Origin: Lewinellaceae bacterium SD302
GTDB lineage: Bacteria > Bacteroidota > Bacteroidia > Chitinophagales > Saprospiraceae
Assembly: GCA_002591745.1 (NCBI GenBank)
Contig: PDLQ01000006.1
Coordinates: 124,001 to 188,000 of the forward strand
Direction of reading: 5' to 3'
Length of the DNA stretch: 64,000 nt
In this document: piece after piece, positions 34,640-51,246 of the stretch
Position numbering within the stretch: position 1 is the stretch's first letter
Layout of the letters: the number at the start of each line of letters is the position of its first letter
The notes under the pieces: generated by a model
The model's database searches: none
What the model saw: only the letters and a program-made list of their open reading frames with translations
What the model was told of the DNA's origin: nothing
Made by a program: the position numbers and the translations under genes

Positions 34640-34641
34640 CG
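34605..34641 (-). promoter_or_regulatory. Perfect 15-bp hairpin covering both candidate start codons
   Basis: CGTTGCATAAATGGA (34605-34619) and TCCATTTATGCAACG (34627-34641) are exact reverse complements with a 7-nt loop. In the mRNA the two ATG codons at 34639 and 34612 fall in opposite arms, so folding would hide both. Control of translation is inference. Confidence 0.6.
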
Positions 34642-34700
34642 ACAGAAGAGGATGTTACACTGATACATCGTTATTCTGTAATATTTATTTGCCTCTACTA

Positions 34701-34762
34701 TACACCTTGCTACTTTGCTAGCAATAATGAAATAATTTGGACTAACAAAGTAGCAAGGTGTA
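34701..34762. terminator. Hairpin made of two TGCTACTTTG repeats
   Basis: A 21-bp left arm (34701-34721) pairs with the right arm (34742-34762) with a single mismatch; each contains a TGCTACTTTG core. It lies 28 bp beyond the stop of the lipoprotein gene at 34791 and upstream of the gene starting at 34639, so it probably ends the lipoprotein transcript. Confidence 0.65.
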
Positions 34763-34790
34763 GTAAAAGCTTTTGCCTACGGGCGGAAGG

Positions 34791-35384
34791 TCATTCAGGT
34801 CTTGAATATTCGATCAACTCCTCTACGTATAGAAACTCACCTTGAGATTGAGTGAGTTTTATAAAATTTTTCACGGCAGGAGCATAAAGCCAAACTTCCT
34901 CTTCGTTTGCATTGTACCCTCTGGAATTAGTTGCTTTACCAGTGTACTTAATCGTATAGGCCATAAACGTACCTGCTGCTACTTTTTCTTTTTGATAGGA
35001 TACTATCTCGGCATTTTGACTTTGACTTCCGGTGGTACCATCCTGACTTGTCCAGTTGTTTTCGTATTTCCATTTTTTGCCTACTTGCAAGGGCCAGGCG
35101 TATTTAGGTGTTTTGCTTACGTCTTTCTTTACAATATCAGTAACGGGGACGGTGTCTTTCCCGATAGTCATACCTAAAACTCCATCAGTAATGACTATTT
35201 CCCTTTTGTCCACTCCATCAGAGCGGACTTCCCCTTCCGTCGTTACCCCTTTGTATTTCCAGATCCACTTTTCACCAGCCTGGTAATCAGCTAAAGTGGG
35301 TTGATGGGCAACATGAGGTTTTTCCGGACTACTACAAGCAGTCAATAATGCAAACATTGAAAATACCACTAGTCGAAATTTCAT
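34791..35384 (-). CDS. Lipoprotein of unknown function
   Basis: A 197-residue protein with the lipoprotein signal MKFRLVVFSMFALLTAC and Cys17. The mature part contains a Trp/Tyr-rich beta structure (EKWIWKYKGVT, WPLQVGKKWKYENNWTSQDG, EEVWLYAPAVKNFIKL). This pattern of a quantified 'linear' lipid-binding or YbgF-like sandwich is not assignable to a named family. It begins 1 bp after the oxidoreductase gene ends, so the two share an operon, and ends before a repeat-derived hairpin. Confidence 0.75.
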   Translation of the reverse strand: MKFRLVVFSMFALLTACSSPEKPHVAHQPTLADYQAGEKWIWKYKGVTTEGEVRSDGVDKREIVITDGVLGMTIGKDTVPVTDIVKKDVSKTPKYAWPLQVGKKWKYENNWTSQDGTTGSQSQNAEIVSYQKEKVAAGTFMAYTIKYTGKATNSRGYNANEEEVWLYAPAVKNFIKLTQSQGEFLYVEELIEYSRPE

Positions 35385-35385
35385 T

Positions 35386-36450
35386 TTAAACTGTTTTGGA
35401 TTGAACTGATTCTTTCTTTCCGCTCACCTTTTTATTTTCACGCCTGGAGTGCCCCTGAGCAGCGCGAGGCACCAACACTACGTTGCCTCGCTTTCTCCCG
35501 CTATCCACGTATCTATGTGCCGCAACCACATCTTCCAGAGGGTATTGCTGGTCGATGACCATACGCAAGGATCCCTGGGTGATCAGTTGGGTGATCTCGT
35601 CGAGGTATGCCCGTAACTTCTCCGGCGGCAATAATCCTGCCGGGGCAAACTTTACGCGCTGTGAAGAGAAAAGGCGGGTACGAAGCATATCCAGCAATAC
35701 CGAAAATTTCAGTACCGGCGTGGTGTAAATTCCTGTTTCGGTAAGCAAATGCCTGCACTTTCCGTAAGAAGTATTGCCAATTGTATCGAAAATCAGGTCG
35801 TAGGTTTCCTGCTCTTGGGTGAAGTCGGTCTTGGTGTAGTCGATTACGTTGGACGCGCCTAAAGATTTCACCAACTCCACGTTGCGGCTACTACACACTC
35901 CCGTTACCCGGGCACCGAAGGCATGTGCCAGCTGCACGGCTGCCGTCCCCAGGCTACCGGAAGCACCAATAACCAGCACCGATTGACCGGCTTGGACATT
36001 GGCCAGCGTCTTTAAGAAATGATAGGACGTAAGTGGCCCGTCACACAGTGTAGCTGCATCTACGTACGAGAGGGCTATCGGAACCCAATCAATTACTCCA
36101 TCTGCTGCCACGCAGACGTACTCCGCGTTGGCCGCAAAGCCAAGGCCACTCTCGCCAAAGACCCGGTCACCAACGGCAAAGTCCTCTACTTCCGCCCCAA
36201 TACCGACCACCTTGCCGGCAAAGCCTGTACCCATTACGTTATTACGCGGCCTGGTAAAGCCCAGGAAAAGCCGTGAAATGGCCGGATCAGCGCGCCGCAT
36301 CATTGTATCAGCGGCCGTCACCGGGGTAGCATAGACCTTAACCAGTACCTCGTTAGCCTTCGGCTTAGGGCGCTCGATAGTGGCAATCTCAATTTTTCCG
36401 GGTCCGCCGTAGCGGGTGAGGACGGCGGCTTGCATCATACTCTTAGTCAT
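35386..36450 (-). CDS. Zinc-independent MDR oxidoreductase (quinone oxidoreductase-like)
   Basis: A 354-residue medium-chain dehydrogenase/reductase, using NAD(P)H in the cytoplasm. The N-terminal GroES-like domain has GPGKIEIATIERPKPKANEVLVKV (positions 15-38) and MGTGFAGKVVGIG. The Rossmann domain has VIGASGSLGTAAVQLAHAFGARVTGV (about 155-180). The catalytic zinc Cys/His pattern of alcohol dehydrogenases is absent, placing it with the quinone oxidoreductase/alkenal reductase subgroup. The C-terminal 30 residues are Lys/Ser-rich and unlike the family. The substrate is unknown. It is first in a two-gene operon with the lipoprotein at 34791. Confidence 0.88.
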   Translation of the reverse strand: MTKSMMQAAVLTRYGGPGKIEIATIERPKPKANEVLVKVYATPVTAADTMMRRADPAISRLFLGFTRPRNNVMGTGFAGKVVGIGAEVEDFAVGDRVFGESGLGFAANAEYVCVAADGVIDWVPIALSYVDAATLCDGPLTSYHFLKTLANVQAGQSVLVIGASGSLGTAAVQLAHAFGARVTGVCSSRNVELVKSLGASNVIDYTKTDFTQEQETYDLIFDTIGNTSYGKCRHLLTETGIYTTPVLKFSVLLDMLRTRLFSSQRVKFAPAGLLPPEKLRAYLDEITQLITQGSLRMVIDQQYPLEDVVAAHRYVDSGRKRGNVVLVPRAAQGHSRRENKKVSGKKESVQSKTV

Positions 36451-36529
36451 GTCTTAGTGCTTTGGATTTGTACTACAAAGCACGGCCCCATTCTTAAGCG
36501 CGTCGTTCGTATTTATAAACCCGAACCAA

Positions 36530-38860
36530 TTACTTCAACCGTTGCTTACGGTATGCCGCCGGGGTGATCCCCGTCATTTTTTTAAAGAATGTATTAAAAG
36601 AGGTTTTAGAGTTAAATCCACTCTCCAGCGCGAGCCCCAGTAAGGTCAGGCGCTGAAAATCCGGGTCGACCACTTTGTCCTGAAAGAACCGAACCCGGTA
36701 AGTATTGACGTACTCCGAAAAGTTCTGCCCGAAGCCCTCATTGATTAATTGGGACAGGTAGTTGGGCAGTAACTCCAATTGCTCAGCCAGACCCCGCAAA
36801 CTCAAATCAGGGTTCAAAAAGAGTTCTTCCTGCTCCATTATCCGGGTCAGCTTACTCTTATACTGGTCAATTTCTTCGGGAGACAGGAGGGCCTTTTTGT
36901 ACTTCCTTTTAGGGAGTTCCGTAAAGGGTGATTTACTAAATATCCGACTGGAGAGTTCCTGAAACGCCGGGAGCTTTCGCAGAGGCTTCAGAATCGGGCC
37001 GATTTGTGTATACACAACCAACGGTAACCGTAATTCAATTCCTCGCGCTAGCAACTGAAGTGCTTTTTCATGATTACCGAGTAAGGTATGACAGAGAATA
37101 AGCAGATCAAGCGCACGATCCATTTGCGGGCCTTCCAATCCTTGCTCCAGTAGTTTCATTCCTGCACCGGCCTGGTCAGGATCGGTCACCGCGTACACCA
37201 TGGCCGTCCCGCCTATCTTCAGCAGATCATCGTCAGATACCGGCAGTTTCCGGAAGAAATCCAGCGCTCGTTGGTGCTGACCGGACAGAATCAAAGACTG
37301 GCCGAGTTCCGGTAGCGAGACGTGACTATCCGGCTTCAGTTCCATGCTTTTCTTAAAGTACCGGATGGCGGGAACATATTGTTCCTGAATAAAGAAAAGA
37401 TAGCCTTTGAGATGGTAGTTGATGGATGAGAACGGATCGAGTTGTAGCGCAGTATCGATGTAGTTATGCGCGGCTTGTAACTTACCTTCCACGACCAGCG
37501 TGGAAGCCATCGATTGATAGTATTCTACCGAAGGCCGCTGCTCAAATGACTTGCGCAAGTGCTCGTAGGTAGCGGGTAGATCCCAGTCTATTAGCAGACT
37601 ATGGTAGGATAAATGCAATTGTACTTCCGGCAGGCTATCGTCTAGTTCGATCGCTTTTGCGAGATAAGGCTGCCCGGCAACGAAAGCCTCGGCAGCGGGC
37701 ATCATTCCCAGGGTTGCCAGCAATGTGTAGCTGAGGTGAAGCCCGAGGTGCGCCAACGGAAATTCCGGTTGGTCGGCAACGATTTCCGTAAAAATGGACA
37801 TCCCCCGCTCGATCTCCGGAGCACTCATTTTTAAGACATGGTAACGTCCTTTGAGATAGCGCCTGTAATTATCTACGCTGACTGGTTGCGGGGGCACCAA
37901 CTGATCATTGATATCAAAATGCCCGATGTGCTCCCGCAGGCGATCGGCCACCAGTAAACTCACCTCATCCTGTACGGCAAAGATATTTTCGAGGGAGCGA
38001 TCCAGCGTTTGCGACCAGAGCGGAACGTCCTCCCGCACGTCTACTAAGGTCATCGTAATTCGCATTTTATCGGCCGCTAACCGGATACTCCCTTCTACAA
38101 TGTGGGCCACCTTTAGTTCCTGACCGATTTGTGGCAAGGGGATTTGCTTATGCTTATAGAAAAAGGATGAGGTACGCGAGGTGACCTTGAGCGGCTCAAT
38201 GGTAGACAAGGCGTTGATGACCTCCTCGGTCATACCGTCACTCAGGTATTCTGCGTCCTGGTTGGCGCTACGATTTACGAAGGGCAGCACTGCTACCGTA
38301 TGCTCGGCAACTGCCTGCTTGCCGCGCAATTCGTGGCGCTGCGGCACCACCAGCCCGGTATTGGTAACCGCATAAACAGCCAGCGGTTGTGCGACGTTTT
38401 TGAGGTAAAAAAGGCCCAGCGAAGTAGTTGTTAAGTGCTGCTGATTGAGTAGTTCATCGTTCAGTTTCTCAGAGATTAACACGCCGCCGGCCACCCCCAT
38501 ACTTTCAACTCTGGCGGCAACGTTTACCCCGTCACCATAAATGTCCGTACCGTCAAAAACGATGTCGCCAATATGCAGACCAATTCGCAAAGGAATACCA
38601 TCGGCAACATTTAAGGCCCGTTGGATGGCAATGGCGCAGGAGACAGCTTTCACCCCGCTGGCAAAGATACTGAGGGTGCCATCGCCAAAATACTGAAGAA
38701 TCTCCCCGTTATGTTGTCCATGGGTGGCTTCAAAGACCTGACGATGTTGCTCCCGCTGGGCTGCGGCCTTTTGTTCGTCAGCTTGCATCAGAGCGGTATA
38801 GCCCACAATGTCGGTAAACATCACGGCTGCAAGACGACGTACTTTTTGTTTGGAAGGCAT
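36530..38860 (-). CDS. Fusion regulator: class III cyclase, TolB-like, TPR and AraC-type DNA-binding domains
   Basis: A 776-residue protein with an unusual order of modules. Residues 8-160: adenylate/guanylate cyclase catalytic domain with the two metal aspartates (Asp17 in FTDIVGY; Asp60 in FGDGTLSIF) and YGDGVNVAARVES. Residues 187-330: TolB/FlgO-like N-terminal domain (TVAVLPFVNRSANQDAEYLSDG). Residues 340-630: TPR-like repeats. Residues 665-776: AraC/XylS helix-turn-helix pair (LSLRGLAEQLELLPNYLSQLIN; KTSFNTFFKKMTGITPAAYRKQ). No membrane segment or signal is seen, so it is cytoplasmic. It may make a cyclic nucleotide and bind DNA in one chain. Target genes are unknown; it stands alone. 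Confidence 0.9.
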   Translation of the reverse strand: MPSKQKVRRLAAVMFTDIVGYTALMQADEQKAAAQREQHRQVFEATHGQHNGEILQYFGDGTLSIFASGVKAVSCAIAIQRALNVADGIPLRIGLHIGDIVFDGTDIYGDGVNVAARVESMGVAGGVLISEKLNDELLNQQHLTTTSLGLFYLKNVAQPLAVYAVTNTGLVVPQRHELRGKQAVAEHTVAVLPFVNRSANQDAEYLSDGMTEEVINALSTIEPLKVTSRTSSFFYKHKQIPLPQIGQELKVAHIVEGSIRLAADKMRITMTLVDVREDVPLWSQTLDRSLENIFAVQDEVSLLVADRLREHIGHFDINDQLVPPQPVSVDNYRRYLKGRYHVLKMSAPEIERGMSIFTEIVADQPEFPLAHLGLHLSYTLLATLGMMPAAEAFVAGQPYLAKAIELDDSLPEVQLHLSYHSLLIDWDLPATYEHLRKSFEQRPSVEYYQSMASTLVVEGKLQAAHNYIDTALQLDPFSSINYHLKGYLFFIQEQYVPAIRYFKKSMELKPDSHVSLPELGQSLILSGQHQRALDFFRKLPVSDDDLLKIGGTAMVYAVTDPDQAGAGMKLLEQGLEGPQMDRALDLLILCHTLLGNHEKALQLLARGIELRLPLVVYTQIGPILKPLRKLPAFQELSSRIFSKSPFTELPKRKYKKALLSPEEIDQYKSKLTRIMEQEELFLNPDLSLRGLAEQLELLPNYLSQLINEGFGQNFSEYVNTYRVRFFQDKVVDPDFQRLTLLGLALESGFNSKTSFNTFFKKMTGITPAAYRKQRLK

Positions 38861-39253
38861 GGATTTTGGTGGTTTCTGAATTACTTGTTGTCGTCGCTTA
38901 TATCTGCCCTGCTACATAAGTTATGCGCGAAGCAAGTGCAAGTAAAGAATATGAAAGGCAAATAAGAACAGACTCCGTTCAGGGATCAATAATAATGTAC
39001 AAAATTACATTTTTGAACGACTAGTATTCACCTCCACCAAAATTGTTATGCTATACTGCCCTCGGGCACACCAGGTGATTTTTGATGGCCGCTTTTTCCG
39101 CCTGACTTCACCGCCGAGTCTTGCCGTAGCTATGGCTATGCCTTCATCTCGCCAGTTTGCCAGCCGAAAAAATCAGCTCGTCAAATTTTCACCTCTTGTG
39201 CCCGAAGGGAGTATATCATCTTGTGTGAAATCGATTACACTTTGTAATGAATT
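38861..39253. other. Gene-free spacer of 393 bp
   Basis: The spacer holds the promoter side of the cyclase fusion gene and the 3' side of the RiPP-like operon. Its main content is the inverted-repeat element at 39058-39213. A 69-codon open frame on the plus strand (39048-39257) runs through that element and is probably not a gene. Confidence 0.6.
39058..39213. repeat. 156-bp imperfect inverted-repeat element (MITE-like or structured RNA)
   Basis: The left arm starts CCCTCGGGCACACCAGGTGA (39059 on) and the reverse complement of the right end starts CCCTTCGGGCACAAGAGGTG. Similarity continues for about 50 bp on each side (for example GCTTTTTCCGCCTGAC against GATTTTTTCGGCTGGC). The centre (about 39112-39160) includes GCCGTAGCTATGGC. 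GC content is higher than the neighbouring sequence. The arms are too long for an ordinary terminator, although it lies just beyond the stop of the RiPP-like operon. Confidence 0.55.
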
Positions 39254-40183
39254 CTAACGTATTACCTTAAGATAAACCTCTTCACGATTAAAATCGAAGA
39301 CTATTCGACGGTCTTTTAACAGGGAATTTCCAATCGCCCCGATGTATTGCTGTGATGAGTTTTCGGATCCCATATCCATGACAACTATGAATTGATCCTC
39401 TACATCAATACTACCGAGCTTAAATTTTTCAGGCATAATGATGGCCATTCTCTGCGCTGGTAAAGCCGTGAATCTTGAAGAATCAAGATGCATTCTTTTG
39501 GTTTTCTTTAAGAAAAATTCAACTTCCCGTTTTTCTCGATTGAGATAAACAGCATTGGAGGCCCCCAGGTCAAAAAGAAAATTCCCGCTGATAGTATCCG
39601 CTACGTTTAGGCTGTCATATACGACAAGGGACAATACGGCGAACAGTCCATTGACCTCTTTATCGAAATCAGCCTCATACTTTTCGTAGGAAATTAAGTT
39701 GTCTATAACACCATCACCGATTTCAATTAAAGAATCCGCAAAATTGATCGCGGTTGGCACATTGAATGACCTAATTGGAAAAATGATGTCGTAACCAGCC
39801 CAAACTTCATGCTCACTCAGGTCAACTACCAAAGCGTTTATTTGCCGTAAGTTGCCATACAGATTCATCTCGCCGGAAATCTTATAAACTACCGGAAGGT
39901 TTTCAGTTGTCCCCCAAGTATTTACCGAAGCCTCTGACGCTGTTCTTACAAGTTTGCTATTGCTTGATAACAAAGCATCTGCTAAATCATTATCGAAGAT
40001 AATTTCAGGAAATCCGCTCTCTAGGAATACGTTTGCTTTTAAATGACTGTCGACTTGCCATGTAGTGTTTAACCTCCCTTCGTTGATGAAGAGAGGAAAT
40101 TTTTCCATTTTCGCTTTAGACCTTAGTATACAGGCATTAAATGCGAACAGTATTAAAGTAGCGGACAATATCTTGAAAGTCAT
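39254..40183 (-). CDS. Retropepsin-like lipoprotein with altered active sites, last gene of the RiPP-like operon
   Basis: A 309-residue exported protein with a lipoprotein-type signal (LFAFNAC, Cys18). Two aspartyl-protease-like halves are visible. The first has ESG (residues 55-57) where DTG is expected; the second has DLGAS (205-209). The closing GAIGNSLLKDRRIVFDFNREEVYL is the classic end of bacterial retropepsin-like domains. In related clusters such proteins could trim or bind the exported peptide in the periplasm. The loss of one catalytic Asp makes protease activity doubtful. It follows the HlyD gene by 37 bp in the same direction. Confidence 0.7.
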   Translation of the reverse strand: MTFKILSATLILFAFNACILRSKAKMEKFPLFINEGRLNTTWQVDSHLKANVFLESGFPEIIFDNDLADALLSSNSKLVRTASEASVNTWGTTENLPVVYKISGEMNLYGNLRQINALVVDLSEHEVWAGYDIIFPIRSFNVPTAINFADSLIEIGDGVIDNLISYEKYEADFDKEVNGLFAVLSLVVYDSLNVADTISGNFLFDLGASNAVYLNREKREVEFFLKKTKRMHLDSSRFTALPAQRMAIIMPEKFKLGSIDVEDQFIVVMDMGSENSSQQYIGAIGNSLLKDRRIVFDFNREEVYLKVIR

Positions 40184-40220
40184 CTTGCTCTTAATTAATT
40201 AAAGAATAATCGATAGGCTA

Positions 40221-41516
40221 TCACCCCGAAAATATGCTGCGTATCTCGTAGAAAATTCTTTCCATCAAACTGGCATCCTCCAACACAACTTCAAGGCTGG
40301 CTGGCATTTCGGGCCGGAATTCGAGTTTTTTGCCATATTCCGTTGTGTTTCCATTTTCCAACTGTGCCGTAAACAGGTACCCCTGGTCAGAAGGAGTATA
40401 GGAGATATCATCTATCCTGGCATTCATGACCCCGTACTCTCGGTATGGAAACTGTTGAAGTTTTACAATCACCTTTTGTCCAATTTCTACCAAGCCCGAT
40501 TTATTGAATGGAAGAATTCCTTTGATAACGTATTGGCTGTTCTCGGGACTTAGCGTAAAGAGCTCATCAATTTCATTTACGTGCTGGTTTTTTTCTAGTC
40601 TGATTTTTCTGGTTAAAATGCCTGAGAAAGGCGCGATGATCATATGCGCCGCATTCCAAACTTTAATTTCAGCCAGCAGTTGATTGACAACCTCACTGAT
40701 CGCCAGTTCGATATCCTTGAAGCTCCTGCTTTCGCCCGAACTTAGTTGAGCTATTTGATTCTCTACGCTTCTGATTCCCACGTATATGTTTTGAACATCA
40801 CTATTAATGTTTGAAAATTGCGATTTCTCTATAGAAAGCTCGTACTCAGCCCTTTCCGCCTCTCTAGCTGAAATCACCTTATCTTTCAATAGAGATTTAG
40901 ACCTTTGGTTTTCAACTTCCAGTAAATCTATTCTCTCGATCGCCAGTTTTCTTTCAAGTTCACGCGTTTTCAAAGCCTTTCTATACTCTTCAATTTGCTG
41001 GTTTAATAAGTTAATTTGGGCATCAACGGTATATTCTAGCCCATGTGCTATCCTGCGTTGAATCAGTGTTTGAAGACGAGCAGAATTCATGGCCATCGGC
41101 CCCACTTTACTTCCGGGAATAAACTGTAAGAGAGAGTCTGCGGCTTCCTGCTCATTCCTTACCAATTTCGATAACAATCTTTTCAATACCTGAATATCCC
41201 GGTAATCCTCGTCAGAAGAAATAACACAAATAATCGAATTGCTGTCAATGAGAGAATTATCCAATTCAGTGACGTACTGAATCCTGCCAGATGATTGTGC
41301 GACCAACGTCAGTGGGGAATTTGCAGTTGTCACTATTCCACTTGCGGGTACGACGTCGGGAAATCTGATCAGTAGCCCAAGGGCAACGAAAATGATTAAG
41401 ACAGCCAATATCAAATAATTGCCAGAACTCAGTAGGAGAGGTGGAGGAGTGGATAGTACTTCATTTACAGTATCCGAATAAATATTTACTTCTTCTATTT
41501 TTGATTTCTTATCCAT
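40221..41516 (-). CDS. HlyD-family periplasmic adaptor of the peptide exporter
   Basis: A 431-residue membrane-fusion protein linking the inner-membrane ABC transporter to the outer membrane. One membrane segment (about residues 31-47, YLILAVLIIFVALGLLI) follows a short cytoplasmic tail. A barrel-sandwich half (PASGIVTTANSPLTLVAQSSGRIQYV) comes next, then a long coiled coil (about 130-270), the second half (HMIIAPFSGILTRKIRLEKNQHVNEIDEL) and a beta-barrel domain. It is 9 bp downstream of the C39-peptidase ABC transporter, its expected partner. No outer-membrane TolC-like gene is in the cluster; a shared TolC would be needed. Confidence 0.9.
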   Translation of the reverse strand: MDKKSKIEEVNIYSDTVNEVLSTPPPLLLSSGNYLILAVLIIFVALGLLIRFPDVVPASGIVTTANSPLTLVAQSSGRIQYVTELDNSLIDSNSIICVISSDEDYRDIQVLKRLLSKLVRNEQEAADSLLQFIPGSKVGPMAMNSARLQTLIQRRIAHGLEYTVDAQINLLNQQIEEYRKALKTRELERKLAIERIDLLEVENQRSKSLLKDKVISAREAERAEYELSIEKSQFSNINSDVQNIYVGIRSVENQIAQLSSGESRSFKDIELAISEVVNQLLAEIKVWNAAHMIIAPFSGILTRKIRLEKNQHVNEIDELFTLSPENSQYVIKGILPFNKSGLVEIGQKVIVKLQQFPYREYGVMNARIDDISYTPSDQGYLFTAQLENGNTTEYGKKLEFRPEMPASLEVVLEDASLMERIFYEIRSIFSG

Positions 41517-41525
41517 ACGAATCGA

Positions 41526-43730
41526 TTAACTTCCCAATTCCAACTGGTTTTTCACCAGTTCATAGTAAAAGCTCTGATTTTCGGTCAACTGATCGTGATT
41601 TCCGACCTCCACTATCTCTCCTTCGTGTAAGACAACGATTTGATCAGCGTGCTTTACTGTACTCAAGCGATGTGCAATCACTACAACTGTTTTGTCAGTC
41701 AGGTAATCATTCATCCGCTCTACAATCACGCGCTCATTGTTTGCGTCCAGAGCGGAAGTCGCCTCATCAAAGAAAAAGTACGAGGGATCCTTGTATATTG
41801 CTCTGGAAATGTAAATTCTTTGTTCCTGCCCTCCGCTGAGCCTGACACCAGAATGCCCAACCAAGGTATTATAACCGCTAGGTGATTTCTCGATATAATC
41901 CTCAATATTAGCAACATAAGCTGCAGTTTTCAACTTGTCCAAATCGATAATACCCGATTGTTCGGATTCAGCAATGTTATCACCAATAGTATCATTGAAC
42001 AAGTATCCTTTCTGGAGCACCGCACCACATTGTTTGCGCCACTCTTCTGTATTCATGGATTCAAATGGCTGGCTTCCCAATTTTAATTCCCCCTCGGTGG
42101 GATGAACGAACTGTAATAGTAACTTTAACAGGGTCGTTTTCCCACTTCCACTCGCACCGACAATTGCCGTCGTTTTTCCAAAGGGGATAGTTAAATTGAT
42201 GTTTTTTAGAACCATTGGCGAAGACTTCCCTCCGTACTGAAAGGATAGCTCATTCAGATAGATGTTACGATCTTTTCGGTCTAGGAAATCGTTACTGAAG
42301 GCTTTTCCTTCGTCCTCCAATTTTTGCTCATGTACCTGAGATAAGCGCTCCAAACTTATTAAAGCATCTTGACCAGCCTGCAGAAAAACGATGAAATTAC
42401 TTAAAGGGATGTTTAGCTGGCCAATGATGTACTGAATTGAGATCATCATGCCCAAAGTGATATTTCCCTTGACTACCGAAGTAGCAGCGACGAATGTAAT
42501 CACGATGTTTTTCAGCTCGTTTATGACCGATGCGCCAATCGTCTGAGATTGTGACAGCCCCAGGCTCTTAAGAGACAGTTTAAAAAGTTCTACCTGGATA
42601 CTTTCCCATTTCCAGCGCTGTTTGAACTTAGAATTATTAATCTTTATCTCGTATACGCCATTAATGATCTCGACCAGGGAAGAATCATTTTCGGCCAACT
42701 TATCAAAACGCTTGAAGTCCAGTATTTCCCTTTGGCGTAAAAAATAGAGAGACCACAAAACGAATAGAACAGAACCGGAAGCGAAAATGAGGAATATCGG
42801 AAGACTGTAATACAGGAGGATTAAAGAGAATACTATTAAAGTGATAAATGAAAAAGCAGTAGTCAGAGTTGTCGCGGACAGAAACGCCTGAACCCGGGAG
42901 TGGTCCCTGATCCTTTGCATGTGTTCTCCCATATTTCTGGTCTCAAAGTAACTGAGGGGTAGATTGAGAATTTTCATTAAAAAATCCGAAACCATTTTAA
43001 TGTTGATTCTGCTCGACATATGGAGGATCAACCAGTCCCGGATTATTCTTACGGAAGTAGCGGAGAGAAATAAGACTACCTGAGCAATCAAAATCACGTA
43101 GATGAACCCAATGTCCTGAAAATTGACCCCGTAATCCACAATCGATTGCATCAAAAAAGGAAGGGAGAATTGAAGAATCAACCCAAGCGTCAGTCCCAGT
43201 AAAATCTGAAAAATAATTTTACCGTGTGGTCGAAAATACGGTAATAAAAACCTGAACCCTACTTTCCTGTTGGCGTTTTTGTCTTCTTCATTTACATAAA
43301 AATCAGGGGTAGGATCCAACACCAATACGTAGTTAGACTGCATCTGCTGATCGTTAAGCCATCCATTCAAAAATTCCTCTTTACTATATTTGATGATCCC
43401 AAAGGCAGGGTCTGCTACGCTAATCACCCCTTTCTTAACACCCAGAAAGGTTACAAAATGTCTTTGACGCCATGGTAATATAAAAGGAGTAGGAATTTGT
43501 TCTAAAAGTATCTCCGGCTTAACCTTAATCCCTAGAGTACGAAAGCCAATTTTCTCAGCTGCTTCTGCGATACCCGCTAGCGTAACCCCTACTTTTGATA
43601 TCGAGGTTAAACTCCTCAAGTATTCACGAGAGTATCTTTTGCCGTGGTACATGGCAACCATCCTCAAGCAAGTTGGCCCACAATCTTTTTGGTCGATCTG
43701 GCGAAAGAATTTAAATTTATTCTTACCCAC
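41526..43730 (-). CDS. Peptidase-containing (C39) ABC transporter for the double-glycine peptide
   Basis: A 734-residue ABC exporter that removes double-glycine leaders while exporting the peptide. Residues 1-150: C39 peptidase domain with the full triad Cys17 (QKDCGPTC), His91 (RQRHFVTF) and Asp107 (VADPAFG). Residues 160-460: six-helix membrane domain. Residues 490-734: ATPase with Walker A GASGSGKTTLL, signature LSGGQEQR, Walker B YFFFDEATSALD and the switch His. Its start overlaps the amidohydrolase gene by 8 bp. Its natural substrate is very probably the GG-leader peptide encoded at 46253-46408 in the same operon. Confidence 0.93.
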   Translation of the reverse strand: MGKNKFKFFRQIDQKDCGPTCLRMVAMYHGKRYSREYLRSLTSISKVGVTLAGIAEAAEKIGFRTLGIKVKPEILLEQIPTPFILPWRQRHFVTFLGVKKGVISVADPAFGIIKYSKEEFLNGWLNDQQMQSNYVLVLDPTPDFYVNEEDKNANRKVGFRFLLPYFRPHGKIIFQILLGLTLGLILQFSLPFLMQSIVDYGVNFQDIGFIYVILIAQVVLFLSATSVRIIRDWLILHMSSRINIKMVSDFLMKILNLPLSYFETRNMGEHMQRIRDHSRVQAFLSATTLTTAFSFITLIVFSLILLYYSLPIFLIFASGSVLFVLWSLYFLRQREILDFKRFDKLAENDSSLVEIINGVYEIKINNSKFKQRWKWESIQVELFKLSLKSLGLSQSQTIGASVINELKNIVITFVAATSVVKGNITLGMMISIQYIIGQLNIPLSNFIVFLQAGQDALISLERLSQVHEQKLEDEGKAFSNDFLDRKDRNIYLNELSFQYGGKSSPMVLKNINLTIPFGKTTAIVGASGSGKTTLLKLLLQFVHPTEGELKLGSQPFESMNTEEWRKQCGAVLQKGYLFNDTIGDNIAESEQSGIIDLDKLKTAAYVANIEDYIEKSPSGYNTLVGHSGVRLSGGQEQRIYISRAIYKDPSYFFFDEATSALDANNERVIVERMNDYLTDKTVVVIAHRLSTVKHADQIVVLHEGEIVEVGNHDQLTENQSFYYELVKNQLELGS

Positions 43731-45012
43731 CCTTGAGAGATTGATTTAGACGGTCCATTTTCTCTAGAATGGATGTACGACTCAACACTTCGCCACTAAT
43801 AATAATCGTCTCTATATAGTCGACCGCATTGATGTTTTCAAGCGGATTGGCTGTTAGAATAAGCAGATTGGCCCTGGAGCCTACCTTTATAGTACCCCAG
43901 GATGGAAACTGTTTCCGTTCCGTCATCTTCGCATAGTTGAGTGATGCGGCTGTCAAAATATCACGAGGAGGAATTCCAGCTGTACTGAAGTGTTGAAGCT
44001 CTCTTTGATAATCGAAACCAGGAACACCGTATATCCCCGAAGCGTCAGGACTTACAACAGTTAAACCACCATTCTCATAAATCAACTTCAAGTAACCTAA
44101 CCGGACATCAAAATTCGCTTTTTCTTTTGCTCGGCTGGTTTCACGTGATTCGGAGGTGCTTTCTTTATAGTATTCGTCAACTTTTTCTTCCCAGGTATTA
44201 AGCTTTTCGGTAGCGATATACTGAAGTCCTGGTTTATTTGCCAGAGTGTCCTCAATCACCTGCCCCGTAAAATACCAATCCATGGTAGGACAGTGAAAAA
44301 CACTCCTATCTTTAGTCATTTCAATCACCCGATACAGTTCATCGAGGGAGCTAACTTGTAATACTCCCGATAAATGTTCTATCGAAGCAAACATCATGGT
44401 TTCTGCAGCACGAAATGGTCCAATATTCCTTGGGCAATGACCGGCTAGAAACAGGTTATGATCCAGACAGCTTTTGACCCATGAATAAAAAGTGGAACTA
44501 TCAGCAACACTGAGTACTTTGACAAAATCAAATCCAGCCTCGCCGTAGATCTTACCCAGACTGTCGATTTTTTCAGCACTATATGATTGTCTTCTCGATA
44601 CAGGTGGAGAACCTAAATAGTAGGTTGGGGTAGGGGAGTAGCGATTTCGATGTTTAATATGCCATTCTTTCCCTCTCATGCTTCTCACGGAGGTAACTCC
44701 GTGAGCCAATTGCATTAATCCATATAATTCTAATCGATTGCTATCCGGTAAATGGCCGTGAGCGTCTCCGAAAGAAGGGATTAAGAATTTCCCAGTACCA
44801 TCTATCGTCAGGTACGTATCAGGTATTTCTTCAAAACCTTTGTGATCTGAGATCCGACTAACAAACCCTTCTATTATTTCAACGTCAACATTTTTGTAGA
44901 CTTTGTTAATGTGCAGTGGGATCGCGGTTATGTTTGCAATAACGATACTGTCCTGGGTATGGACGCCCGAAATACAGCACAAAATTAAAATAAGAACCTT
45001 AAATATCTTCAT
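43723..45012 (-). CDS. Secreted metal-dependent amidohydrolase of the RiPP-like operon
   Basis: A 429-residue amidohydrolase-superfamily protein with a signal peptide (MKIFKVLILILCCISGVHTQ). Metal-site residues are visible: His85-x-His87 (DAHGHLP), Lys165 (FVKVLS), His192 (AGHCPRN), His213 (IEHLSG) and Asp323 (SPDASG). This is the imidazolonepropionase/dipeptidase-like subgroup, many members of which cleave peptides or cyclic imides. Because of the signal it acts in the periplasm, after export. It may trim or open the modified peptide, or give self-protection; both are inference. It overlaps its neighbours by 14 bp upstream and 8 bp downstream, so it is tightly coupled to the modification enzyme and exporter. 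Confidence 0.85.
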   Translation of the reverse strand: MKIFKVLILILCCISGVHTQDSIVIANITAIPLHINKVYKNVDVEIIEGFVSRISDHKGFEEIPDTYLTIDGTGKFLIPSFGDAHGHLPDSNRLELYGLMQLAHGVTSVRSMRGKEWHIKHRNRYSPTPTYYLGSPPVSRRQSYSAEKIDSLGKIYGEAGFDFVKVLSVADSSTFYSWVKSCLDHNLFLAGHCPRNIGPFRAAETMMFASIEHLSGVLQVSSLDELYRVIEMTKDRSVFHCPTMDWYFTGQVIEDTLANKPGLQYIATEKLNTWEEKVDEYYKESTSESRETSRAKEKANFDVRLGYLKLIYENGGLTVVSPDASGIYGVPGFDYQRELQHFSTAGIPPRDILTAASLNYAKMTERKQFPSWGTIKVGSRANLLILTANPLENINAVDYIETIIISGEVLSRTSILEKMDRLNQSLKGG

Positions 45013-46090
45013 TCAGCCACATTTTATAAAAGTCAGAGTTAAGGTACTTTTGGATGTCATTATGTTTAGAGAATTCGGAATAGTAGAAATCAATATCTCG
45101 GAATGACAAGTCAAATAAAGACAAGAAATCTTTGTACTCTTTCGATTTCAACCTTCCGAAGTCTACCATTTCATTGTACAAATCCGCCCCTCTGGGAGTT
45201 AGGAAATTGTAGATGTTTTTGGAAAACACGTTTAGCTTTTCAAATCGTAAGAACTGATCTGCAAAACGCCCGGCTAGTTCGTGACTTTCTTGCTCACTCA
45301 AATGGGCACTACGGATTATTTTTTCAAATACTCTGATTCTTTCAATTACGGTGAAGAGTCCATGATAAGCGGACATCAGAGAACGGTAATCCACGTTTCC
45401 GCCGTTCACTTCATTCATTTGCACTTCATCAGGGTTACAGGTAAAAAAGTCGGCTTTGTTATGTAAGTGAAGATTTAATAGATTATGTCCACCTTGATGT
45501 ATCAATTCTTCAACAAAGTAAATCCGGTTGATTTCGTCAACCACCCAGAAGGATAAAAAACCTTGAAATGATTTAGTGACGAAGTTGATTATCTTGGGAT
45601 TGTCGTGAATAAAAATAAGCTTATTGCTTAAATTTATGTGTTCAAAAGTAGCCGGAACGGTTTCCTTTATCAATTCCAGTGCAGAGTTGAATGCATCGAA
45701 TTTATACTCAGCGAGTGAGAAATCAGGATGCTCATTACTAATATGGCCACGGTATATTTCGTAAAAAAATGGCCTTACGTAGTCTGGGATTTCCAACAGC
45801 AGTTTTATGCCTCCAAACTCAGTGGACTGTGTGGCAATATCACCGTCTAGAATGCATGCGAGATCTTTTTTTAAATCATTCGACTTATCAGTATTGTTGA
45901 AAAGGGCAAAAAGGAGGGGGTGCATAAAAAAAGCATCATCCTTGTCACTATATTTCTGATACAGCTCAGGCGCACTTTTTACTATTAAGACCCTGATCAC
46001 ATTACTTATACTGTGGATATTATTAGGAATATCACTCTTGTCTAATGAAAAATCTGATGATATTCGGATTGAAGTGTCATTTGATGTCAT
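44999..46090 (-). CDS. HExxH-family peptide-modification enzyme, HQGGH variant
   Basis: A 363-residue cytoplasmic protein. I recognise the general pattern of the HExxH putative peptide-modification family, some members of which are 2-oxoglutarate-dependent beta-hydroxylases of RiPP precursors. Here the motif is EELIHQGGHNLL (His198 and His202, with Gln in place of Glu). A downstream SAYHGLFTVIERI (His243) matches the third conserved His region. I start it at the ATG at 46090 because a longer frame, reaching a GTG at 46243, would translate through three strong hairpins. It directly follows the precursor gene and overlaps the amidohydrolase gene by 14 bp. The family assignment is from memory of the motif pattern, so chemistry is tentative. 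Confidence 0.7.
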   Translation of the reverse strand: MTSNDTSIRISSDFSLDKSDIPNNIHSISNVIRVLIVKSAPELYQKYSDKDDAFFMHPLLFALFNNTDKSNDLKKDLACILDGDIATQSTEFGGIKLLLEIPDYVRPFFYEIYRGHISNEHPDFSLAEYKFDAFNSALELIKETVPATFEHINLSNKLIFIHDNPKIINFVTKSFQGFLSFWVVDEINRIYFVEELIHQGGHNLLNLHLHNKADFFTCNPDEVQMNEVNGGNVDYRSLMSAYHGLFTVIERIRVFEKIIRSAHLSEQESHELAGRFADQFLRFEKLNVFSKNIYNFLTPRGADLYNEMVDFGRLKSKEYKDFLSLFDLSFRDIDFYYSEFSKHNDIQKYLNSDFYKMWLNEDI

Positions 46091-46110
46091 AGATATAATA
46101 TTCAATCCGA

Positions 46111-46234
46111 CTAAAGTTGTTAACTTTAGCCTTCGTCTATAGCTTATTCGTAAGTTGTAGTAATAGCAGGATGGCTGCTGTAACAGCCATCCTGCATCTT
46201 TAGGTGAATCACACGCTTCAACGTGTATTTCACC
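46111..46234 (-). promoter_or_regulatory. Three tandem hairpins between precursor gene and modification enzyme
   Basis: In transcript order: GGTGAA..ACACG with CGTGT..TTCACC (46203-46234); a perfect 12-bp stem GCAGGATGGCTG/CAGCCATCCTGC with a 6-nt loop (46166-46195); and a perfect 8-bp stem CTAAAGTT/AACTTTAG (46111-46129). None has a T-run. They could stabilise the precursor mRNA, attenuate downstream transcription, or mark an RNase site, so that more precursor than enzyme is made. Confidence 0.65.
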
Positions 46235-46252
46235 CATCTTCACTAGTAGTTA

Positions 46253-46408
46253 TTAGGGAGTAACAATTACTGTTGGAAGGGTGCCACCGTCGTAAATAAC
46301 ATCGTCGTGGCAGTCGTTGGAAGTACCTCCGGAAACTTGCTCGAGGAGAGCGTCAGTAGCTACCTCTTCGGCGAGGTTTTGGAGAGCTTCAAAAGAAAGC
46401 TTATTCAT
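46253..46408 (-). CDS. RiPP precursor peptide with double-glycine leader
   Basis: A 51-codon gene that a simple ORF search by length would miss. The peptide begins MNKLSFEALQNLAEEVATDA; the leader ends LLEQVSGG (Gly27-Gly28), the classic C39 cleavage site. The predicted 23-residue core starts TSNDCHDDVIYD and ends GGTLPTVIVTP. It has one Cys, four Asp, one His, one Asn and two Pro: suitable targets for beta-hydroxylation. A second Gly-Gly at 41-42 is a possible further cleavage site. Initial residues (MNKLSFEALQNL) resemble GG-leader natural-product precursors of Bacteroidota. It is first in a same-strand operon with modification enzyme, amidohydrolase, C39 transporter and adaptor. Confidence 0.85.
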   Translation of the reverse strand: MNKLSFEALQNLAEEVATDALLEQVSGGTSNDCHDDVIYDGGTLPTVIVTP

Positions 46409-46773
46409 AATTAAATAATTTAGAATATGGGTTAATAAAATCCCTAATCCGTCACGCGTCTAGGGCTCGTGCGGCATTAATAAATCAATGCGGTTCCTGA
46501 CGTTAGTCAATAAAGACTAACGCAAAGTCTGAGTATTTTCACCCCGATAAGATCAGAGCAAAAATGCTTTGTTCGTTAATTTAAGTGTTTGTAAAATCTG
46601 AAGTTAGTAACTTATTGCACCGAAGAACTCGGCGCTGTCGGAGTAAAGACTCTACGACGATATCTTATCGTATTAATTAGATAAGCGTAATTTGTAAATC
46701 TCATGTGAAGGTGTTGAATATTGGGATGTAGAGTATTACAGCCAAAAAAAAGAAGTCGCTGTAATGATTAAGA

Positions 46774-46804
46774 CAAATATAATACACTCGTTTGATACAG
46801 TCAA
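46774..46804 (-). promoter_or_regulatory. Candidate promoter of the RiPP-like operon
   Basis: On the minus strand TTG (46804-46802) is followed by a 20-bp spacer and TATATTTG (46781-46774), an exact -33/-7 match to the Bacteroidota consensus. Transcription would begin near 46767, leaving a leader of about 360 nt before the precursor ATG, unusually long and containing stem-loops. Confidence 0.5.
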
Positions 46805-46868
46805 CTATAAATCAAAAATTTTAACAGTATATATTTCCAATTACAGCATAGTCTAAAATAACAACATT

Positions 46869-47043
46869 AGAGTTGTTCGGACATAACTCATTGATAATCA
46901 GTGGGCCTTTTCTGAGCCGAATTACATTTCAAAAATCACAAAAATTCAAGTTGCTGATAATGAGAACGTTATAATTTTATAAAACTTCAATGCCACTCAT
47001 TGTAGATTCGCATAACTTACTGATAATCAATCCGAACAACTCT
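46869..47043. repeat. MITE-like element with 13-bp perfect terminal inverted repeats
   Basis: AGAGTTGTTCGGA (46869-46881) and TCCGAACAACTCT (47031-47043) are exact reverse complements; similarity extends outward (AACAT..AGAG on both). Inside, CATAACTCATTGATAATCA (46882-46900) is repeated directly as CATAACTTACTGATAATCA (47011-47029). The element is about 175 bp with no coding capacity. Non-autonomous transposon or binding-site array are both possible. Confidence 0.5.
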
Positions 47044-47261
47044 ATTATGTTAAGTAAGCTTTAGTTAGAGATTGTCTAGTGGTGGGGAAGAGGAGCGCTT
47101 GTAAGACCTACTTACTAATTTGGAATACAGTACTGGGGAATATACAGTACCAGGAAGAATTGCAAATTAGAGTTTGCCTTATCGTATGGTTATTTGAATT
47201 TTCTTCAAAGAGATGCATGGGCGCCTTACAATAAAGATTAATACACCAAAAGCCTATAATT

Positions 47262-47503
47262 TATATTATGTTAAGTAAAGTGCTCGAAATGCTCAGATCG
47301 CTTATTTTGACTTCAAAGTAGCAATGCTCGGTAATTTACCCATATCGTTCAATTGTCCTTGAGAGCATCGGCATCCTCTGGCCTTCGAATTAGACTTCAT
47401 GGCTACTAACGCCAGTATTAGTGAATCATCTTGAATGCATGCCTTCATATTTCTCCCCTACTCTTGTTGCAACTGCCAAATAAACACTACTTAACATAAT
47501 ATA
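47262..47503. repeat. Second inverted-repeat pair, 16-bp perfect arms
   Basis: TATATTATGTTAAGTA (47262-47277) and TACTTAACATAATATA (47488-47503) are exact reverse complements enclosing about 210 bp. A third copy of TATTATGTTAAGTA lies at 47043-47056, directly abutting the other element. The enclosed segment contains one TGCTACTTTG repeat copy (47314-47323). Confidence 0.5.
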
Positions 47504-47527
47504 TTTATTTGGGTCAGCCTTTTATAG

Positions 47528-48433
47528 CTATCCTTTCAGAAGGTTATACGTCCACTCTCCTTCATTTACCTCTCCAGTTATTGGATTGACGATCTTATAA
47601 TCTATCTCCACTATCGGTTGATGTGCGTTGTAAAATCCATTATATTCGATGACACCATTCATATCCGGCACAAACGGTTTTCCGTTGATTTTAAATCTGA
47701 TGTTATCTCGCTCTGGAACATAGCCAGGAACGACAAGCAGAAAGTGGACGGGGTCCCCCACCCTGGTCGTCTGCTCGACTGCATAGACACTGAAGGGTAA
47801 TCCAAAATTACAGTAGAGATCTTTACCACCTGCCAATTGAGCATAAAAGATGGTCATCTCATAAGTCAGTTGCACAAATTGCTGGTTCAATATCGCTAAT
47901 CTTACGCTCGTGCTCACGGAATCCAGCCCTGATGCCCGATCTTGCAAAATGGACCGGAAAGACTGAATACTCTTGGCGCAATCACTAATGTCTAACATTG
48001 ACTTGATCTGATGTTCCGAAATTCCGAATTCTCTGGACATAGCCTTCAAGCTCAAAGCAAAATTACTTTCGATCCCGAAAAGCTGGCGCTCCGCAAGGAT
48101 CTCTAAAGTCTGCAGCTCATCATCCGTTAGTTTCCTTTTTCCGTGCTGTTTCAAATAAATATCCGATTGCTTAAGGAACTTGCCCGCGATCTCATTCGTC
48201 TCTGTGATCATTGGTAAGACCGGCTGATACCTGGTCTTATGATCCACATCCAGTTCCCAGAGTAGTTGACTTAATGTGTACTCATTTTCTGTTTCAATCA
48301 ATTGCCGGTCACTTGCCAATACCTCCTGCAAAGTATTCAGTTCTGCCAATCGCTGCTCCTGCAGGCATTCTGTTCTGGAATACCAATAGCTGACCAGGGC
48401 GAGCATGCTCGCCAGGATAATATTACTTCTCAC
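47528..48433 (-). CDS. Membrane-anchored protein with possible GldM-like domain
   Basis: A 301-residue protein with one N-terminal hydrophobic segment (residues 4-17) then a soluble, mostly helical domain (20-195) and a strand-rich end. The C-terminal part (VGDPVHFLLVVPGYVPERDNIRFKINGKPF to EWTYNLLKG) recalls the second domain of gliding/T9SS protein GldM: an 'adopts-an-NGK' strand pattern ending in an EGEY-like strand. The likeness is weak and the length is much below that of GldM (about 500). Function is unknown. It lies between the RiPP-like region and a LytS/LytTR pair, in the same direction as both. Confidence 0.6.
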   Translation of the reverse strand: MRSNIILASMLALVSYWYSRTECLQEQRLAELNTLQEVLASDRQLIETENEYTLSQLLWELDVDHKTRYQPVLPMITETNEIAGKFLKQSDIYLKQHGKRKLTDDELQTLEILAERQLFGIESNFALSLKAMSREFGISEHQIKSMLDISDCAKSIQSFRSILQDRASGLDSVSTSVRLAILNQQFVQLTYEMTIFYAQLAGGKDLYCNFGLPFSVYAVEQTTRVGDPVHFLLVVPGYVPERDNIRFKINGKPFVPDMNGVIEYNGFYNAHQPIVEIDYKIVNPITGEVNEGEWTYNLLKG

Positions 48434-48527
48434 TTGTTTTCGTTTGCAGGAGGAATGCAGTGAAGAGGAAAAGTAACGGCTTACGCTATTTCAGGGCAAG
48501 CGGATTACTCAGTTATATCCATCAAAT

Positions 48528-49223
48528 CTAACCAAACAACCGCCCCACAACCACCTCTTTCCGCTGCCGGCTAACGGGCAATAACTTCCCGTTCACCTCC
48601 AATTGATTTCCTTCCAGGGCCGTCACCTTATCTACTGCTACTAAATAGGACTTATGAATTCTGATGAAACGGCTCTCAGGCAACTGCTCTTCCAGTAAAT
48701 GCATACGGGTGAGGACCAAATGGCGACCCTCGGCGGTATGTATACCCACGTATTCCCGGTAGCCTTCCAGATAGAGGATATCTTCAATGGGAATACGCAA
48801 TAGCCGACCATCCGTTTTCACCGTTATCGTTGTGGCAACTTCGGCAGGGTTCGTTGCTGCAGAAACTTTATTGCCTTTTGCCTTGCCGATCGCTCTTAAG
48901 AATCGCTCGTAGGAAAAGGGCTTAAGCAGATAATCGGCTACATCGAGCTCAAAAGCCTGGAGGGCGTAATCGGGGTAAGCGGTAGTAAGAATGGTTACGG
49001 GAGGGCGATTCAGGCTACGCAAGAGATTAAGGCCGCTTAGCCCGGGCATCTGTACGTCGAGTAGCAGAATATTCGGTGGTTTGCGCTGAAGAAGCTCAAT
49101 GGCCTCCACCGCCGTCTGAAAACGGGCCGACAATTCCAAATAAGGCGTCTGTCGGATGTAGTGCTCCAGTAGATCGAGAGCAAGTACTTCATCATCGATG
49201 GCTACGATACTCAGCTCATTCAT
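48528..49223 (-). CDS. LytTR-family response regulator
   Basis: A 231-residue regulator. The receiver domain (residues 4-118) has the acidic pair DDE near residue 11, phosphoacceptor Asp in LLLDVQMPG (Asp57), Thr in ILTTAYPDYA and Lys in YLLKPFSYERFL. The LytTR DNA-binding domain (about 130-230) has ILYLEGYREYVGIHT and RIHKSYLVAVDKVTALEGNQLEVNGKLLPVSR. It overlaps its kinase gene by 8 bp and acts as its partner. LytTR proteins bind direct repeats upstream of target genes; none was identified. Confidence 0.93.
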   Translation of the reverse strand: MNELSIVAIDDEVLALDLLEHYIRQTPYLELSARFQTAVEAIELLQRKPPNILLLDVQMPGLSGLNLLRSLNRPPVTILTTAYPDYALQAFELDVADYLLKPFSYERFLRAIGKAKGNKVSAATNPAEVATTITVKTDGRLLRIPIEDILYLEGYREYVGIHTAEGRHLVLTRMHLLEEQLPESRFIRIHKSYLVAVDKVTALEGNQLEVNGKLLPVSRQRKEVVVGRLFG

Positions 49224-50265
49224 GGTCGGCTATTTGAGTGGATTGGAGCGGCAAGCTTAATTCAAATTTATAAATTCCCCGCTTATCATTTTTTAATGTC
49301 TTCAAAGTAGCAGTGGGATGGCTCAAAGCCAGGCGTTGCCGGATATTTTCCAGTCCTACCCCACCCTGTTGGTCTTTTGAATTCTCGGCAGGATCGTAGG
49401 AATTCTCCCCCATAAAAATCAGTTGCCTTCCGTCAATGATCAATTCGAAATGGGCGTAAGCTGACTGATTGATAATGAAATCACCGTGTTTGAAAGCGTT
49501 CTCTACGAGTGGCAGCAGCAACAATGGCTCGATCGTGGTGTTTTGTGCGCTAACTGATGTCCGTAAATTAATATCGAGGGGAACTTCGCTTCTCAGTCGG
49601 AAGAGAGAAATATAACGTTCCAATTGCTCTACCTCCGCGCCAATACTCACCCCGTCCAGTTGCCCGTCGTAGGTAACGTAGCGCAAAAGGTCACTCAGCT
49701 GCAGAACAGTAGTTGCCGTGCGTGGGGAATTCATGCTGGCCAGACTGTAGACATTGTTCAATACATTAAACAGGAAGTGAGGGTTGATCTGACTCCGTAG
49801 CTGCTGTAATTCCGCTATCCGTCTTTCCTCCCGCAATTTCAACTGGGTCAACGCCGACTTGCGTCGCTGATCACTTAGCAAGAAGAGATAACTCAGGGAA
49901 AGGACCCCGAAATTGCTGGCCAGACTGGCCCAAAACAGATTAACCCGGCGATTGCCTTCGGCCAGGGGATTCAGTTCGCCCGGCAACCAGACGTTGTTCA
50001 ACCGAGTCCGTAATAGGGTCATCAGGCAAATGGTCAGAAATATCACCAGCCAGCATTTCCAATTGGACTCTGGCTTTTCGAAACGGCGTAACCACCACTG
50101 GTAGAAATAGAAAAGCGCGCCCAGTAAACCAGTGTTTAACAGTCCACGCAAGAGCGACAGGCGAAGGCCGGAATAAGGGACGTTTACCCCCAGATAGATG
50201 GCCAGTATACTTAACCACACGAAGATGTGCCAAGGCGGAATAGCATCAGATTGCTGGAGTTTCAA
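49216..50265 (-). CDS. LytS-type sensor histidine kinase
   Basis: A 349-residue inner-membrane kinase. Four hydrophobic segments (residues 13-135) are followed by a short coiled coil and the His_kinase domain with phosphoacceptor His in LRSQINPHFLFNVLNNV (about residue 163). The ATPase domain has LLLLPLVENAFKHGDF (N box) and GGVGLENIRQRL (G box). It has no large extracellular domain, so the signal may be sensed in the membrane. It overlaps the LytTR regulator gene at 48528 by 8 bp. A TGCTACTTTG repeat copy is embedded at 49303-49312. Confidence 0.93.
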   Translation of the reverse strand: MKLQQSDAIPPWHIFVWLSILAIYLGVNVPYSGLRLSLLRGLLNTGLLGALFYFYQWWLRRFEKPESNWKCWLVIFLTICLMTLLRTRLNNVWLPGELNPLAEGNRRVNLFWASLASNFGVLSLSYLFLLSDQRRKSALTQLKLREERRIAELQQLRSQINPHFLFNVLNNVYSLASMNSPRTATTVLQLSDLLRYVTYDGQLDGVSIGAEVEQLERYISLFRLRSEVPLDINLRTSVSAQNTTIEPLLLLPLVENAFKHGDFIINQSAYAHFELIIDGRQLIFMGENSYDPAENSKDQQGGVGLENIRQRLALSHPTATLKTLKNDKRGIYKFELSLPLQSTQIADHE

Positions 50266-50476
50266 CTACGAACTTTTTATGAAAGCTACGCAATTTACCC
50301 CCCTTAGGTAGAAAATCATCAACGAATGGCGGATTTGCTTCAACCAATGGTCGAGCTGCCTCCGATATACCACACATTGATCTTTTCCCACTATTGGTTG
50401 ATCGAAGTTTGGACCACTCATGACAAAGCAGATGTTTGCCAGCGTTAATCGCATCGATCACTTAAAAACCATACCG

Positions 50477-51235: not shown

Positions 51236-51246
51236 TTATCAGCCCC

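Follow-up and report, generated by a model that had tools for sequence, protein, structure and literature searches.

We analysed a window of 64,000 nucleotides from Lewinellaceae bacterium SD302 (contig PDLQ01000006.1), in which a minus-strand operon of six genes probably encodes a new family of ribosomally synthesised and post-translationally modified peptides (RiPPs). In this reading, an oxygenase with an HQxxH motif oxidises a Cys-His(-Asp) site in a small precursor, which is then cleaved and exported by a C39-peptidase ATP-binding cassette (ABC) transporter. A leader-bearing precursor gene adjoins the gene of a tailoring enzyme and the two are conserved together. Enzyme, exporter and peptide recur together across loci, in line with the single export and maturation path for a modified peptide that an earlier, sequence-only reading of this DNA had proposed. 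All six open reading frames (ORFs) were found on the minus strand where that reading had placed them (Table 1). New here are a family of precursors and, with it, an enzyme that is a Gln variant of an oxygenase fold discovered only recently.

The leader of the window precursor ends in LLEQVSGG, and the predicted mature product is the 23-mer TSNDCHDDVIYDGGTLPTVIVTP, with Cys-His at positions 5-6 (Cys33 and His34 of the precursor). The precursor is 59% identical to the peptide of locus L028 (Flavobacterium sp. SM15), with CHDDVIYDGGTLP identical in both, and 68% identical over 38 residues to the peptide of locus L071. In an alignment of 34 locus peptides, chosen by their Cys-His (CH) pattern, the Cys and the His were invariant. 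Four residues separate the GG-type site (GG, GR or GQ) from Cys-His in 33 of these peptides and five in one. The pair is followed by Asp in 17 peptides and by Glu in 1, and 15 of the 34 have a core with a single Cys and a single His. The smallest predicted product, the 11-mer VAADCHVGNNG of Chitinophaga polysaccharea (L061), offers little besides Cys-His to act on. No NCBIfam family exists for these precursors, the single weak match being to leader_pinensin (E 0.73, 1 of 34 peptides), and the window peptide had no match in Pfam or NCBIfam.

The Cys-His peptide is coupled to the HQxxH enzyme. Small ORFs matching the regular expression G[GRQ]-x(3-5)-CH, which was defined after peptides had been seen, were searched for in 38 loci. 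They were detected on the strand of the enzyme in 29 loci (site GG in 27, GR in 1 and GQ in 1) and on the opposite strand in none. Far from never standing beside GG peptides, homologues of the HQGGH protein thus have a GG-type peptide at most loci. As a chance control, five Markov versions of the 661,415 bases gave 0, 1, 1, 0 and 0 plus-strand matches. With peptides added by eye in L048 (GG...SACH) and in the planctomycete loci L043, L046 and L049, a Cys-His peptide is present at 33 of 37 HQxxH loci; L032, L045 and L053, among those without one, start at a contig end that coincides with the enzyme or lies very close to it. A leader-only profile, blind to CH, retrieved 35 peptides in the loci, 35 of them with CH and 33 of them training rows or identical to one. 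Among 296 genomes of the phylum, the enzyme profile matched three, and the peptide profile matched the same three plus one weak CH-less sequence. The third of these genomes, G170, gave no training row; it holds an intact peptide with GGTENACHDG, an enzyme in fragments and then a HlyD-like piece (C1:1255404-1256880; L026, L027 and L065).

Six profile-found loci (L070-L075) were left unexamined until the end and used as a late check. HQxxH, C39-ABC and HlyD proteins were found in all six and Cys-His peptides in five: GGTENDCH in L071, GGAEADCH in L073, four peptides with GQVLGDCH in L074, GGVLAECH in L075, and a copy of L054 in L072. The sixth locus, L070, begins with the enzyme at a contig end. 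All 8 leader-profile matches in these loci at E<=0.5 carry CH. The late-check loci therefore add to the support for the coupling of enzyme and peptide.

These counts bear on the idea that the peptides are ordinary Bacteroidota bacteriocins, unmodified or of lanthipeptide type, with the HQxxH gene as an occasional neighbour. We consider this very unlikely. Enzyme and peptide co-occur both in the 296-genome sample and in five of the six late-check loci, a CH at fixed spacing (33 of 34) is not a lanthionine pattern, and the six operon genes include neither LanB nor LanC, so that this is not a class I lanthipeptide cluster. What speaks for the idea is the likeness of the leaders to common GG leaders, the leader_pinensin match mentioned above, and the presence of LanB and LanC beside the HQxxH enzyme in L007 (3266-7596) and of a LanB relative in L041 (4923), whose cluster of related proteins has more members in L033 and L034. 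L007 and L041 are possibly hybrid lanthipeptide plus oxygenase loci.

Enzyme relatives adjoin C39 exporters in Bacteroidota, and one branch lies in Planctomycetota. The small proteins directly upstream of the planctomycete HQxxH enzymes (L043:9145-9471, L046:9417-9716 and L049:9495-9905) have a signal-like N-terminus in place of the GG leader and keep Cys-His, followed by a GIWIPELVPVF segment. No C39 relative was detected in the stretches fetched for these three loci, so that Cys-His is separable from the exporter and tied to the enzyme. The planctomycete loci constitute a second lineage of the system.

The HQGGH motif of the window enzyme is coded at positions 45485-45499. As the sequence-only reading had assumed, the enzyme is of HExxH type: its fold is that of the alpha-ketoglutarate (aKG)-dependent HExxH oxygenases, as in the HExxH domain of ChlB, and an oxygenase heads the fold matches, with proteases scoring far lower. 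Gln occupies the second motif position in 33 of 34 aligned rows, with Glu in L050 only, and the Gln-type motif is found in 10 of 11 profile-found genomes. H198, H202, H243, R236, E271 and R275 are invariant in all 34 rows, planctomycetes included. A relative with Glu (HESSH), the sole one found, lies at L010:8586-9563. The GG peptide beside it (L010:9719-9859) is without Cys-His and stands in natural contrast to those of the HQxxH loci.

Such conservation is not what is expected of a dead enzyme. It argues, as do the top fold match and the CH kept beside the enzyme in the three planctomycete stretches without a C39 relative, against the HQxxH protein being a catalytically dead zincin relative that serves as leader-binding chaperone or delivery partner, with Cys-His required by the exporter or by the target of the product rather than for modification. 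In zincin proteases, the HExxH Glu acts as catalytic base, and its replacement by Gln would agree with this explanation, as would the decayed motifs of other zincin-like proteins at these loci (HDLWH, cluster 7, by eye). On balance we judge it quite unlikely.

If the enzyme is an oxygenase, the following sequence of events can be proposed. The 51-aa precursor would be made in excess over the enzyme, aided by a stem-loop 3' of its gene. By its fold a non-haem-iron oxygenase of aKG type, the HQGGH enzyme would bind the leader and oxidise Cys-His(-Asp) four residues past GG, with Fe(II) bound by H198, H202 and H243 and aKG by R236 or R275. Computation shows the gene order and its conservation, the fold, the invariant residues and the link between HQxxH enzymes and Cys-His peptides; the iron and aKG chemistry, the modified atom and the biological role are what we infer. 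The simplest product would be a beta-hydroxylated His or Asp, as with known aKG-HExxH enzymes, and the change from Glu to Gln at the zincin base should remove a peptide hydrolysis side activity. The C39 domain of the exporter would, by family, cleave after GG, and the ABC-HlyD complex would export the modified 23-mer through a channel in the outer membrane whose gene lies elsewhere. Once the peptide is exported, amidohydrolase and lipoprotein might take part in trimming or self-protection.

Whether the stem-loop lies between the two genes depends on where the enzyme gene starts. Relatives begin near the Met coded at ATG 46090 in alignments, and the start is therefore probably this ATG rather than GTG 46243. 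Of the close spacing claimed by the first reading, the overlaps (14 bp between amidohydrolase and HQGGH genes, 8 bp between C39-ABC and amidohydrolase genes) and the short gaps (9 bp between HlyD and C39-ABC genes, 37 bp between lipoprotein and HlyD genes) hold, and the 9 bp between peptide and enzyme genes give way to a probable 162 bp. This spacer contains the perfect 12-bp stem-loop, whose RNA fold is 4.7 standard deviations better than shuffled sequences (z -4.7). Of 9 other loci tested, 7 have inverted repeats of at least 9 nt downstream of the peptide gene, and L051 and L060 have none; the repeat sequence is common to L030 and L034 and differs among the other loci. The stem-loop is probably a stabiliser or partial terminator that holds precursor mRNA in excess.

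A bolder version of the chemistry, which we put forward as a tentative possibility, is that HQxxH enzymes couple the Cys to the His, for instance by a thioether, or make another oxidative change, the Glu-to-Gln switch abolishing the hydrolysis known from an HExxH relative and committing the zincin scaffold to oxidation. If true, this would be a new RiPP class with a shared warhead of very short peptides, two phyla and two export routes. The exported product might also serve to bind metal, chelating it through the Cys-His pair, with the oxygenase tuning the peptide; this is compatible with oxidation of Cys-His and does not exclude it. The cores with one Cys and one His (15 of 34), the acidic residue after CH (18 of 34) and the wide variation in sequence past CH fit such a role, and a TonB-receptor-like protein is encoded nearby in L011, L048 and L054 (two of them near copies). 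This protein is rare and not part of the present operon, however, and metal binding by a single Cys-His pair is weak, so that we hold the proposal to be unlikely; part of the neighbour genes was annotated, which leaves room for a metal regulator or transporter elsewhere.

Several points weigh against oxidation of Cys-His by the HQxxH enzyme as the preferred reading. The Cys and the His could instead serve the product in metal binding or recognition. The aligned peptides were chosen by CH, the regular expression was defined after peptides had been seen, two of the three co-occurring genomes gave training rows, and the contrast set is one Glu-type locus. Locus L041 is a real gap, an intact HQxxH locus without a GG-x4-CH peptide; its downstream peptide contains GGMAAEECTG and has CH at its end. 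The window HQGGH protein has no match in Pfam or NCBIfam, is unmatched at E<=1 by TIGR04267 (cut-off 40 bits), and carries Gln where that family has Glu. Among its relatives, the Glu-type L010 scores 37.2 bits against TIGR04267, L011 25.8 (the best HQ-type seen) and L007 20.9, with none for L008 and L009. A sequence search of the PDB returned no relative, the best of 4 matches (E 0.085) being unrelated.

The closest known system is the HExxH domain of ChlB, an aKG-dependent peptide beta-hydroxylase (PDB 8s5f, TIGR04267, IPR026337), from which the window enzyme differs by HQxxH for HExxH, by a sequence identity of 14%, by its failure to match TIGR04267, by being standalone with no radical SAM fusion, and by a GG-x4-Cys-His peptide as substrate. 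According to the available passages of PMC12636437, the Pseudomonas aKG-HEXXH enzymes PflC and PosC likewise act on a RiPP precursor, and the pfl cluster also has transporters. They carry out Gln hydroxylation and an oxidative cut at ARMD, PflC also hydrolyses peptides with various metals, and known relatives hydroxylate Asp and His. The HQ form probably cannot hydrolyse peptides, unlike PflC. PesO, which acts on Pro (nitrilobacillin, PMC13060819), and BipH (biphenomycin, PMC12707348) are described in the passages seen as aKG-HExxH hydroxylases of RiPP clusters, both working with MNIO enzymes; neither C39 exporters nor CH peptides nor amidohydrolases are named there. In the Bacteroidales GG-motif RiPP clusters of PMC10352776, whose exporters are PCATs, GG precursors stand beside C39 ABC exporters as in the present operon, and HExxH occurs 0 times in the main text of that paper. 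A TIGR04267 protein beside a small protein is reported for Pseudomonas Os17 in the part of PMC7726476 consulted. No treatment of the HQxxH branch or of GG-x4-Cys-His precursors was found in a literature search by title and abstract start, with most subscription journals outside its scope. The class of aKG-HExxH oxygenases is young and few of its members have been characterised; according to the passage seen of PMC13060819, their transformations cannot at present be predicted. Comparative genomics here names a branch of Gln variants and, for this branch, a substrate family and a likely two-residue target, with a chemistry that can be tested on very short peptides.

Table 1. Features of the operon, in the order of transcription
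Feature	Coordinates	Strand	Remarks
Precursor peptide gene	46253-46408	minus	51 aa, ORF, GG leader
Stem-loop, 12 bp, perfect	46166-46195	minus	between precursor and enzyme genes
HQGGH oxygenase	44999-46090	minus	from likely ATG, 363 aa (open frame to GTG 46243)
Amidohydrolase	43723-45012	minus	weak Pfam match and invariant candidate metal-site residues
C39-peptidase ABC exporter	41526-43730	minus	PF03412 1.3e-29, PF00005 5.6e-27, PF00664 7.8e-22
HlyD-type periplasmic adaptor	40221-41516	minus	PF13437 (HlyD_3) 7.4e-9; TIGR01843 1.5e-18, below its cut-off
Lipoprotein-like protein	39254-40183	minus	one relative, L035 8836-9996 (phmmer)

The Pfam matches to the C39, ABC and HlyD_3 domains confirm the transporter and adaptor of the first reading. 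The exporter contains the C39, membrane and ATPase domains, with a GG substrate encoded nearby; its C39 triad was read by eye only. Accessory genes were counted in 39 loci besides the window, one of them Glu-type and near copies included, with clusters named from single representatives. C39-ABC relatives occur in 30 and HlyD proteins in 29 of these loci. The amidohydrolase is present in 8 (plus the later-found L071). Ten loci have a protein of metallo-beta-lactamase fold, eight a secreted zincin-like protein and nine a membrane protein with a weak likeness to Rce1, whose representative stays below the Pfam cut-off. TPR proteins occur in 16 loci, carnosine N-methyltransferase-like (CARME) proteins in 5 and the TonB-receptor-like outer-membrane protein in 3.

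The signal-peptide amidohydrolase is partly borne out: the window protein stays short of the Pfam cut-off (E 0.0015), its L028 relative passes, and the hydrophobic, signal-like N-terminus was seen by eye. All 8 rows of the alignment share D83, H85, H87, K165, H192, H213 and D323, and the enzyme is therefore probably active, the HxH, Lys, His, His and Asp being residues that we take to form the metal site. The amidohydrolase and metallo-beta-lactamase labels cluster on the tree of the HQxxH enzymes but take three changes each, which may correspond to one gain and two losses; for the zincin-like label, clustering does not exceed that of shuffled labels. The accessory slot has thus been swapped, and the amidohydrolase is, judging by this distribution, interchangeable with other secreted hydrolases. 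Such recurring hydrolases (amidohydrolase, metallo-beta-lactamase fold, zincin-like, aspartyl-protease-like) raise the question of the fate of the product after export.

The pairing of amidohydrolase and retropepsin-like lipoprotein, singled out earlier as unusual, survives as one recurrent, replaceable gene and one rare accessory with a single relative. The retropepsin-like assignment comes from that relative, an aspartyl-protease-like PDZ protein in L035 of Flavobacterium soli (phmmer E 8.8e-7) matching Asp_protease_2 (PF13650 2.6e-10). The window lipoprotein has no Pfam match of its own and no other relative in the loci searched, the six later loci included. Its motifs ESG and DLG, read by eye, compare with D[TS]G, and its fold prediction has a pLDDT of 28.8; two-lobed aspartyl-protease ancestry with degenerate catalytic motifs is possible. 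L035 also holds a CHD peptide, an HQ enzyme, an amidohydrolase, a C39-ABC and a HlyD protein.

CARME-like proteins are encoded in five HQxxH loci (L008:1487-2782, L009:2461-3759, L011:10233-11513, L041:10798 and L054:8110), with E 3.4e-15 for L008 and assignment by clustering for the other four; a histidine methyltransferase would fit with the invariant His being modified a second time. An MvdD/RimK-type ATP-grasp protein (L044:18729-19670) lies about 9 kb from an HQxxH enzyme, and clustering places relatives of it in L054 and L057, a hint that a graspetide-type ligase is encoded near some of the loci. In the secreted zincin-like family (L032:895-2082, L033:11120-12295, L047:741-1862 and others), none of three members tested had a Pfam match over the cut-off; by eye, some members keep HELVH and a downstream Glu and others are decayed (HDLWH).

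The G+C content is 36-42% across positions 39000-47999 and 46-51% outside this segment (34000-52000), and this lower value suggests that the operon region was gained by transfer. In the enzyme tree, built without L071, the window sits on a long branch (2.12) within a group of 100/100 support, together with nine rows that are all from Flavobacteriaceae. This group does not name the donor, because the closest locus seen, L071 (genome G482), belongs to the window's own family, Saprospiraceae, with identities of 43% for the enzyme, 71% for the exporter and 44% for the amidohydrolase. Upstream of the peptide gene, positions 47528-48433 (minus strand) encode a 301-aa protein with no Pfam match, partly within the low-G+C stretch. 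Just downstream of the operon, positions 36530-38860 (minus strand) encode an unusual fusion of an adenylate/guanylate cyclase with TPR and an AraC-type helix-turn-helix domain.
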